Positions 34,390-36,597 of a stretch of DNA of 57,288 nt are shown piece by piece. How positions within the stretch are numbered: position 1 is the first letter of the stretch; each line of letters opens with the position of its first letter. The notes below the pieces were generated by a model that was not told where the DNA came from, did no database searches, and worked only from the letters and a program-made list of their open reading frames with translations. The DNA lies in NCBI GenBank assembly GCA_902762795.1, contig CACWPM010000042.1, positions 1 through 57,288 on the forward strand. Direction: 5' to 3'. Origin of the DNA: Fibrobacter succinogenes. Lineage in GTDB: Bacteria; Fibrobacterota; Fibrobacteria; Fibrobacterales; Fibrobacteraceae. The position numbers were made by a program, and so were the translations under genes.

Positions 34390-36597
34390 ATGAGTGAGCA
34401 GAAAGACATCGACCGTACCCGCTATTTTGAGTTAAAGAAACAACTGGAAGAAGCCAGCCGTCTTTATTACAAAGACGGAGTCTCCCCCATGAGCGACCAG
34501 GATTTTGACTTCGGGCTCAAGGAGATGGAAGCGCTCGAGGCGAAGTATCCGGAATTGCGCGGGAAGGGTTCGCTCACGCAGAAGGTCGGTAGCGACCTCA
34601 CGAATGATTTTGCGAAGGTGACGCATGCGGTGCCGATGCTCAGCATCGCAAACGTCTATAGCGAAGAAGAAATGCGCGAGTTTGTGAAAGCCGCAGAAGA
34701 AGGAATTGCGGCAGTAGACGAGAGAACGGACCTTCGGTCCTACAGACTAGAGACGAGAGAAGATGCAGCAACAAAAGACAATCTCTCGTCTTTCGTCTCT
34801 CGTCTCTCGTCTAAAAAATGGATTTGCGAACGTAAAATTGACGGGGTTAGCCTTTCGATTGTGTACGAGAATGGTCGTTTGAAGCAGGCGGCGACTCGTG
34901 GCGATGGCGCCCAAGGCGACGACGTGACGTTGAACGCGCTTACAATTGCAGATATTCCCGAATATTTTGACGCCAAGAAGTTGAAAATCGACCCGTCGGA
35001 GATTCCGCAGGGAACGTTCGAAGTCCGCGGTGAAGTCTACATGGAACGCGAAGCATTTGAACGTTTGAACGAGCAGTTCATCTTGGAAAACAAGAAGACA
35101 TTCCAGAACTGCCGCAATACGGTTTCGGGCTCGCTCAAGCTCAAGAGCGTTGCCGAATGTAAGACTCGCCCGATGCGCTTTTTTGCCTACCACATTCCGC
35201 AGAGCAACAACAAGACTCACGAAGAAAACTTGAAGCAGCTCAAGCATCTCGGATTCCATACGAACGATTACTGGACAGCCAACACGGTCGAAGAGATCAT
35301 GGCGATTTCCGAGAAGATTGGCGCTAGCCGCGACAGCCTCCCGTTCGACATTGACGGCATGGTCGTGAAGCTGAACGACCTTGCCATGCAGCGCGAGCTC
35401 GGCAGCACAAGCAAGAGTCCGCGTTGGGCCATCGCATACAAGTTCAAGGCCGAGCGCGCCTACACTCCGCTTTTGTCTGTTGAATTTCAAGTCGGTCGTA
35501 CGGGAGCGGTAACGCCAGTCGCAAACCTTGCGCCGGTGCGTCTCGCAGGCACGACCGTCAAGCGAGCCACCCTCCACAACTTCGACGAAGTGGCAAGGCT
35601 CGACTTGCACTACGGCGACACCGTCGGCGTAGAGAAGGGTGGCGAAATCATCCCGAAAATCACGGATGTCAAACGCGAACTGCGCCCCGCCGGGGCCTCC
35701 CCCGTCGTGGCTCCTGAAAAATGCCCCGTGTGTGGCGAGCCTCTCACGCACATCGATGGCGAAGTGATCCTCCGTTGCGAAAACATGCACTGCCAAGCGC
35801 AAGTGCAATGCCTGTTCGAACATTTCGTGAGCCGCGAGGCGATGAACATCGAAAATCTCGGACCCGCGCTTATCGCAAGCCTCCTTGCCACCGGCAAAAT
35901 CAAGCGCATCCCCGACCTTTACCGCCTCACGCTCGAAGACCTGGAATCGCAGGAACGCATGGCAAAGAAGAGCGCGAAAAATGTCTACGACGCCATCGCC
36001 GCTTCCAAGCAAAAAAGCCTCGAGAATTTGTTGCACGGCCTCGGTATCCGCTTTGTCGGCCGCACAAGCGCACGCAATATCGCTAAGCATTTCCGCACGC
36101 TCGAAAAAATCCGCACCGCAACGGTCGAAGAACTGCAAAACGTAACCGACGTCGGTGAACGCATCGGTAAATCCGTCTACGAATTCTTCCACACGCCGCT
36201 TTATACAAACGAAATCGATGAACTCGTAGCGCTCGGCCTCCCGACGGAATTCAAGGGCGTTGTCAAGACATTGTTCCAAGGGCAAACCGCCGTCATCACG
36301 GGAACGCTCCCGAATATGCAGCGCGAAGACGCTCGAAAACTCATCGAAGAATATGGCGGCAAAGTCAGCGGTTCCGTGAGTAAAAAGACGAGCTGGGTCT
36401 TGGCAGGCGAAGCCGCAGGCTCCAAGCTCACGAAGGCAAACGAGCTCGGAATTCCCGTGCACGACGAAGCATGGCTTATGGAGCAAATCGCAAACGCCGA
36501 CGCATCCGACGATGCTCTCGACAACGCCGGCACACCTGTCGATGCCGCAAGAACTTCAACTAAGTCCGCAGAGGACCAGTTGTCGCTAAATCTTTAA
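34390..36597 (+). CDS. ligA: NAD+-dependent DNA ligase with an in-frame repeat insert
   Basis: Seals nicks in replication and repair using NAD+. The 735-residue protein has the Ia NAD-binding domain, the adenylation lysine in [12 protein letters not shown], an OB-fold ([17 protein letters not shown]), a C4 zinc finger (CPVCGEPL...RCENMHC), HhH repeats ([11 protein letters not shown]) and a C-terminal BRCT domain ([16 protein letters not shown]). Typical length is near 670. The excess is mainly about 35 residues at 107-142 ([29 protein letters not shown]), which translate a 104-bp repeat element lying just before the catalytic lysine. All other motifs look intact, so the enzyme is probably active. 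Confidence 0.95.
34711..34814. repeat. Composite repeat element inside ligA
   Basis: AGACGAGAGAACGGACC and TTCGGTCCTACAGACTAGAG, then ACGAGAGA ... TCTCTCGTCTTTCGTCTCTC. It matches in layout the spacer at 41070-41150 (AGACGAAAGAACG, hairpin, CTACAGACGAAAGACGAGAG). The central hairpins differ in sequence (GGACC-TTC-GGTCC versus GCCCGCAACGGCGGGC) but both pair. Length near 104 bp keeps the frame open. Confidence 0.8.

Follow-up and report, generated by a model that had tools for sequence, protein, structure and literature searches.

The insert in ligA

We analysed a 57,288-nt stretch of Fibrobacter succinogenes DNA (the window), which belongs to a 3.93-Mb genome in 89 contigs; genome-wide counts given below rest on searches and sampled stretches. 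The gene for NAD-dependent DNA ligase carries a repeat element in frame, and parts of the same element lie elsewhere in the window. The features are as follows.

34390 to 36597, plus strand: ligA, NAD-dependent DNA ligase, 735 aa, insert-bearing
34715 to 34814, plus strand: whole repeat element in ligA, TA-GACGA...CGTC-TAA
34717 to 34725, plus strand: first GACGARA heptad of the element (GACGAGAGA), the outer stem arm
34728 to 34740, plus strand: small hairpin, GGACC-TTC-GGTCC, with arms hypervariable among copies
34745 to 34760, plus strand: left heptad array (GACTAGAGACGAGAGA)
34761 to 34781, plus strand: copy-specific middle
34782 to 34812, plus strand: right heptad array (TCTCTCGTCTTTCGTCTCTCGTCTCTCGTCT), the reverse complement of the left heptads
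41066 to 41114, plus strand: second copy of the left block, TAGACGAAAGAACG-CCCGCAACGGCGGG-CTACAGACGAAAGACGAGAGA, whose first three bases, TAG, are the trpE stop codon
41115 to 41154, plus strand: CCTANNA heptad array, the remainder of the trpE-trpGD spacer up to the start codon
9873 to 9926, plus strand: isolated left end TTAGACGAGAGA beside a GTAGGAA/GTAGACA heptad array

The gene was assigned from its open reading frame and translation, its match to the PRK07956 LigA equivalog (752 bits) and its DNA_ligase_aden, OB, ZBD, HHH and BRCT domains. The element within it was recognized from the repeat family in its own genome, comparison with the LigA of relatives and a codon-usage score. A preliminary description had placed a repeat at 34711-34814; the repeat is real, and its unit begins and ends at 34715 and 34814, a few bases inside that span. 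The insert reads GTAGACGAGAGAACGGACCTTCGGTCCTACAGACTAGAGACGAGAGAAGATGCAGCAACAAAAGACAATCTCTCGTCTTTCGTCTCTCGTCTCTCGTCTAAAAAATGG, with the layout TA-GACGAGAGA-ACG-[GACCTTCGGTC]-CTACAGACTAGAGACGAGAGA-(21 nt)-TCTCTCGTCTTTCGTCTCTCGTCTCTCGTCT-AA. The repeated words on which that description relied are present, but ACGAAAGA is more aptly taken as belonging to a 7-nt unit, GACGARA.

The ligA frame is open throughout the element, and about 32 residues are encoded there in the ORF translation. In a phmmer alignment, LigA residues 106-142 fall in a seven-residue gap (101 to 109) of Escherichia coli LigA 2OWO, which leaves about 30 extra residues where about 35 had been claimed. The insert ends immediately before W144 and the catalytic K149 of the KxDG motif, which corresponds to E. 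coli K115, so the claim of a stop-free insert just before the adenylation lysine holds. The loop was placed by this alignment to 2OWO, and a single-sequence AlphaFold2 model (pLDDT 35, pTM 0.18) was set aside. Judged from the alignment, the loop would run from a helix to the adenylation domain's first strand and may accept extra length. The insert encodes a charged, probably disordered peptide.

The codon usage of the insert falls in the lowest 1% of same-length segments of the gene (rank 7 of 701) and is unlike the rest of ligA. As RNA, the element has a predicted folding energy of -44 kcal/mol, while shuffled versions average -26.4 (z -5.2); the predicted fold consists of an outer heptad stem, the small hairpin and a second heptad stem. 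There was no Rfam match above the gathering score in 34200-41300. Misassembly of the insert is unlikely because two related genomes, G074 and G080, have nearly the same insert. Directly upstream of ligA, at 34318-34369, CATAGCTCATAGGACCGCAAGGTCCGAGCTCATAGCCCACATG represents another heptad family around a GGACC/GGTCC hairpin.

A dispersed repeat with a variable hairpin

About 40 copies or fragments of the element, the ligA insert among them, occur in this genome. A DNA search of the genome with the element gave 90 matches at E<=10, of which about 43 were at E<1e-6 and the best non-self match was at 8e-16. The consensus is TTAGACGARAGA-ACG-[hairpin]-CTACAGACGARAGACGARAGA-middle-TCTYTCGTCT(YTCGTCT)nAA, with TA at both ends in most copies. 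Partial matches are strongest either over the left block (query 5-50, up to 96%) or over the right array (up to 100%). The middle of the ligA element has no full-length close match elsewhere in the genome; the listed middles differ by copy, and none was seen to be shared between two unrelated loci. The resemblance to the trpE-trpGD spacer that had been pointed out earlier is real, as the left block at 41066-41114 shows.

A strict left-end pattern is present in 55 of the 101 family genomes, all from the same genus except for one genome of a second genus, and the reversed control of this pattern gave zero matches in all 101. Among the pattern matches listed, all the named ones are Fibrobacter or Fibrobacterales. 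The exceptional genome (G013, genus g3; loci L390 and L391) has 37 left blocks together with the 7-nt signal described below, but no left block occurs in its congeners G003 and G019; this points to horizontal transfer or a mixed bin.

The arms of the small hairpin differ from copy to copy and yet stay complementary, as had been proposed. Among 153 distinct left blocks we found 84 forms of the inner sequence, and opposite arm positions were complementary in 88%, compared with 60% (sd 1.6%) when partner arms were shuffled. In the 42 distinct inners of 11 nt, three of the four pairs each take between two and four Watson-Crick forms, with the closing C-G pair nearly constant. CTAC stands directly 3' of the hairpin, so the opposite strand reads GTAG followed by the hairpin, with a C(GAA)G triloop in the ligA copy. 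The triloops are mostly TNC, which places C(GNA)G right after GTAG on the opposite strand. In DNA, hairpins of the C(GNA)G type have unusually high stability. The GTAG tag adjoins the hairpin in most copies, although the search pattern already included most of the tag, and ATAG and GCAG variants also occur. A recurrent minority class, ACG-CTCGCAAGCTCG-CTACAG (for example at L133), has a direct instead of an inverted repeat between unchanged flanks.

The LigA loop, other host genes and the 7-nt period

In every sister-genus LigA that we resolved, the stretch MLSI...KIDGxS is exactly 40 residues long, and the segment is absent; conservation of the segment across the phylum, which would have spoken against a spreading element, was therefore not seen. 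In Fibrobacter the loop measures 42-109 residues and its content is hypervariable. At least six repeat types occupy it across the genus. The DNA of relatives shows GACGARA elements, ACCTCAA, CCTCGNN and AATTCCG heptads and CGTC-type REP-like sequences at this site, sometimes two together, the CGTC REP assignment of some being made by inspection. Mapped onto a LigA tree that excludes the loop, the insert switches type 27 times or more, and the presence of GACGARA changes at least eight times; the tree was quick, with weak forks, and the insert labels came from simple text rules. Unit numbers vary at the same site in L050, L054 and L067.

An alignment of LigA from several strains had been suggested as a check, with the expectation that some would lack the insert and that its ends would be clean. 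The first expectation was borne out: two close relatives, G042 and G075, have a 43-residue stretch with GERAT alone at the insert position. The second was not, because different repeats have repeatedly overwritten the loop. An almost identical insert occurs in genomes G000, G074 and the more distant G080, so old inheritance of, or recombination at, the ligA allele is possible. Differences among these three are few and mostly synonymous or conservative, too few for judging constraint.

A genome search, also suggested earlier, found the element in frame in further conserved genes. There are 40 heptad clusters (at least three heptads) in the genome, and 15 of these lie within predicted genes, two or three of them at doubtful gene starts; these in-gene counts are approximate, as the gene finder was home-made. 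The hosts are LigA, RsgA, a ModF-like ABC protein, a periplasmic binding protein, CbiX-SirC, HemD, CoaBC, FeoB, TopB (two places), UvrA and an Omp85 protein. CysG-like enzymes are also among the predicted host genes of the element, which has at least a dozen in-gene copies. RsgA has a variable insert between CEVR and YRATTS in Fibrobacter, and no long insert was found at this position in the sister genera read. Translated REP-like repeats (HSERSEES, VILSEVEGS) were also noticed in other Fibrobacter proteins (L241 705-1802, L276 2426-5002 and L210 6392-7999), and in an HrpB-like helicase one and the same site holds different repeats in two species.

Between genes, the element favours stop codons. 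For 100 intergenic left blocks both neighbours are known; 69 of these blocks lie in sense no more than 7 nt past the upstream stop codon, where 8.9 would be expected with random strand and uniform position in the gap (maximum 21 in 20000 simulations), and 82 are on the strand of the upstream gene compared with 18 on the opposite strand. The blocks were gathered from several species by pattern and similarity searches; they include some orthologous loci, so the counts are not fully independent. The trpE-trpGD junction behaves like the LigA loop: many species have a 1-nt spacer (TAAGATG), and others have at least seven different fillings, every one of which starts at the trpE stop codon.

The 7-nt unit extends beyond this element. 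In noncoding DNA of the same genome (23 kb out of 177 kb), self-matches were in excess at lags 7, 14, 21 and 28 only (z 21 at lag 7), and there were 41 arrays of period 7 compared with about one for each other period. The signal remains after every segment with a GACGARA word is removed. Sister genomes G017, G003 and G004 have no period-7 array and G010 has two stray ones, none of these four having a lag-7 excess, while G013 has a Fibrobacter-like signal. Long arrays of other families in the window, at 9733-10068, 11645-11699 and 22745-22824 (GTAGGAA/GTAGACA; TTCTAAG), are part of this genome-wide period. A divergent gene junction at 32621-32725 has flanking TAGGNNN and CCTANNN arrays. Judged by eye, arrays of the CCTA type tend to lie before start codons and those of the TAG type after stop codons, in sense.

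The GACGARA unit has no stop in any of its six frames, whereas units such as TTAGGTG and GTAGGAA are closed in several. In sampled stretches, three of seven GACGARA arrays were in genes compared with none of 36 others (p=0.003), a test with small numbers in which the window forms part of the sample and each of the two ligA arms is counted as an array of its own. Freedom from stops in all six frames is a sufficient reason for this family to persist inside genes. Complementary partner arrays are not general across heptad families: only three of 43 reach 75%, so arm complementarity as a universal property of heptad arrays lacks support, and the claim of a stem is limited to the GACGARA family and to individual trp fillings read by eye.

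Origin and meaning of the element

We consider it probable that the ligA insert is a copy of a dispersed palindromic repeat, belonging to a Fibrobacter-wide class of heptad-repeat elements in which arrays of 7-nt units surround hairpins, and that it is tolerated rather than used in ligA. The repeat is multi-copy, the LigA loop is filled by unrelated repeats in different species, the blocks prefer sense orientation at stop codons, and the RNA folds far better than its shuffles. The preliminary description had called it a spreading element tolerated in proteins; spread is shown by the distribution, and no transposition event was seen and no mobilising enzyme found. We propose that non-autonomous copying or gene conversion may seed the element, that replication slippage may then alter the number of heptads, and that mutation correcting both hairpin arms together may maintain their complementarity. 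In ligA, selection would merely keep the length of the insert a multiple of three. Tolerance within genes would be set by frame, length and loop position, and stop-containing heptad families would be limited to intergenic spaces, settling near stop and start codons.

A further possibility, which we think unlikely, is a dedicated non-transposase process in Fibrobacter that writes 7-nt arrays of arbitrary unit at gene junctions and in permissive protein loops, with array replacing array. If this were true, structure and period rather than sequence would be inherited.

The element could also be a REP proper, that is, a GTAG-tagged hairpin on the minus strand that is recognized by a RAYT (an IS200-like Y1 transposase) and spread via single-stranded DNA. 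The minus-strand GTAG directly before the hairpin, mainly with C(GNA)G triloops, agrees with this, as does the presence of a Y1_Tnp gene in the genome. GTAG- and CGTC-tagged REPs lie near 3' ends, often supply TAG stops and occur in ORFs including a DNA ligase and uvrA, and in recB of two Xanthomonas they are found at about the same site; Fibrobacter is not mentioned there (PMC3733652). The Fibrobacter element shares the GTAG-tagged hairpin, the closeness to 3' ends, the supply of TAG stops and the in-ORF sites, including DNA ligase and uvrA. However, REP families share their stem sequence, whereas here the arms vary within fixed flanks and the outer arms are built of heptads, and ATAG and GCAG are also found as the tag. 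No copy lies near the Y1 gene of the genome, and only two of 30 Y1 loci have any heptad word within about 1.5 kb, the span examined. The number of blocks shows no difference between genomes of the genus with and without Y1 (median 6 vs 4, p=0.64), and 317 of 490 blocks are in genomes of the genus without Y1, many of these genomes being drafts. On the Y1 flanks and the copy-number correlation we reject mobilisation by RAYT, and we regard a REP origin as quite improbable. Other Fibrobacter LigA inserts (for example, ...GGGAATGAC and GCTCAGGATGAC) resemble CGTC-type REPs, by inspection only.

Purely local growth, in which heptads arise and expand at each site by slippage without movement between loci, would account for the strict 7-nt period, the many unrelated unit sequences and the varying unit number at one ligA site. 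It is very doubtful as a full explanation, for two non-repetitive words, ACG preceding the hairpin and CTACAG following it, return at many loci unrelated to one another and in a single genome from another genus. A classical MITE, having terminal inverted repeats and duplicating a TA target, and mobilised by a DDE transposase of the IS630/Tc1-mariner type or another kind, would fit the 12-bp inverted ends TTAGACGARAGA/TCTYTCGTCTAA bordered by TA in most copies. This is most unlikely, as a right heptad lies within 260 nt of only 53 of the 156 left blocks, copies have no common middle, and the trp and ligA sites offer no clean empty and filled pairs with a duplication. A search of the 101 family genomes for DDE_3, as a sign of an IS630-type transposase, found it in just two, neither of them of this genus; there was likewise no RVT_1 reverse transcriptase in the genome. 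That the LigA loop is an adaptive protein feature, such as a species-specific interaction segment with a secondary likeness to repeats, is extremely improbable: the loop is lengthened and persists in all genus members resolved and the insert common to G000, G074 and G080 has few replacement changes, but its contents are unrelated among species and match noncoding repeat types, two close relatives have only a few residues more than sister genera, codon usage is not host-like and the same element lies in many unrelated proteins.

Read as a tolerated copy of a dispersed repeat, the insert has parallels elsewhere. Rickettsia palindromic elements form several families of small palindromic repeats lying in frame within numerous conserved genes of unrelated kinds (Ogata 2000 and 2002, summarized in the review PMC10969869). 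The likeness to them that had been suggested holds for behaviour, as the Fibrobacter element too is a palindromic repeat in frame in unrelated conserved genes (LigA, RsgA, ModF-like, CbiX-SirC, HemD, CoaBC, TopB and UvrA in this one genome). It does not extend to membership of that sequence family, to which the element has no known sequence relation; the Fibrobacter element differs in being heptad-built with a hypervariable hairpin, in lying also at stop codons and in the genus-wide refilling of one protein loop.

Heptanucleotide repeats are known as cyanobacterial STRR, as TAACTGA arrays of Beggiatoaceae (PMC4679880) and as GGGAATC/GGGGATT arrays of Xanthomonas and Nostoc (PMC4692102). These share with the Fibrobacter arrays the 7-nt unit, the intergenic position, with some at gene ends or in ORFs, and a spacing that puts stops in all three frames; the genome studied here likewise has tandem 7-nt units dispersed between genes. 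Fibrobacter differs in its many coexisting units, one family of which has a conserved hairpin module, is stop-free in six frames and lies in essential proteins. We found no description of repeats of this kind in Fibrobacter in the open-access literature that we searched. Nor did we find there any description of this combination of features, of the refilling of one loop of an essential protein across the genus, or of the strict 7-nt signature of the genome, all of which seem to be new.

Fibrobacter thus seem able to accommodate repeat DNA at selected positions in essential proteins. In-frame repeats in such proteins had been known as isolated examples from Rickettsia and certain REP-rich bacteria. 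In Fibrobacter, one LigA loop can be traced through more than 60 genomes as unrelated repeats enter and replace one another, a natural series of insertion experiments to which RsgA and trpE-trpGD run parallel. Masking of such loops is advisable for annotators and phylogeneticists. The strict 7-nt period makes the origin of bacterial heptameric repeats testable in a genus with cultured members.
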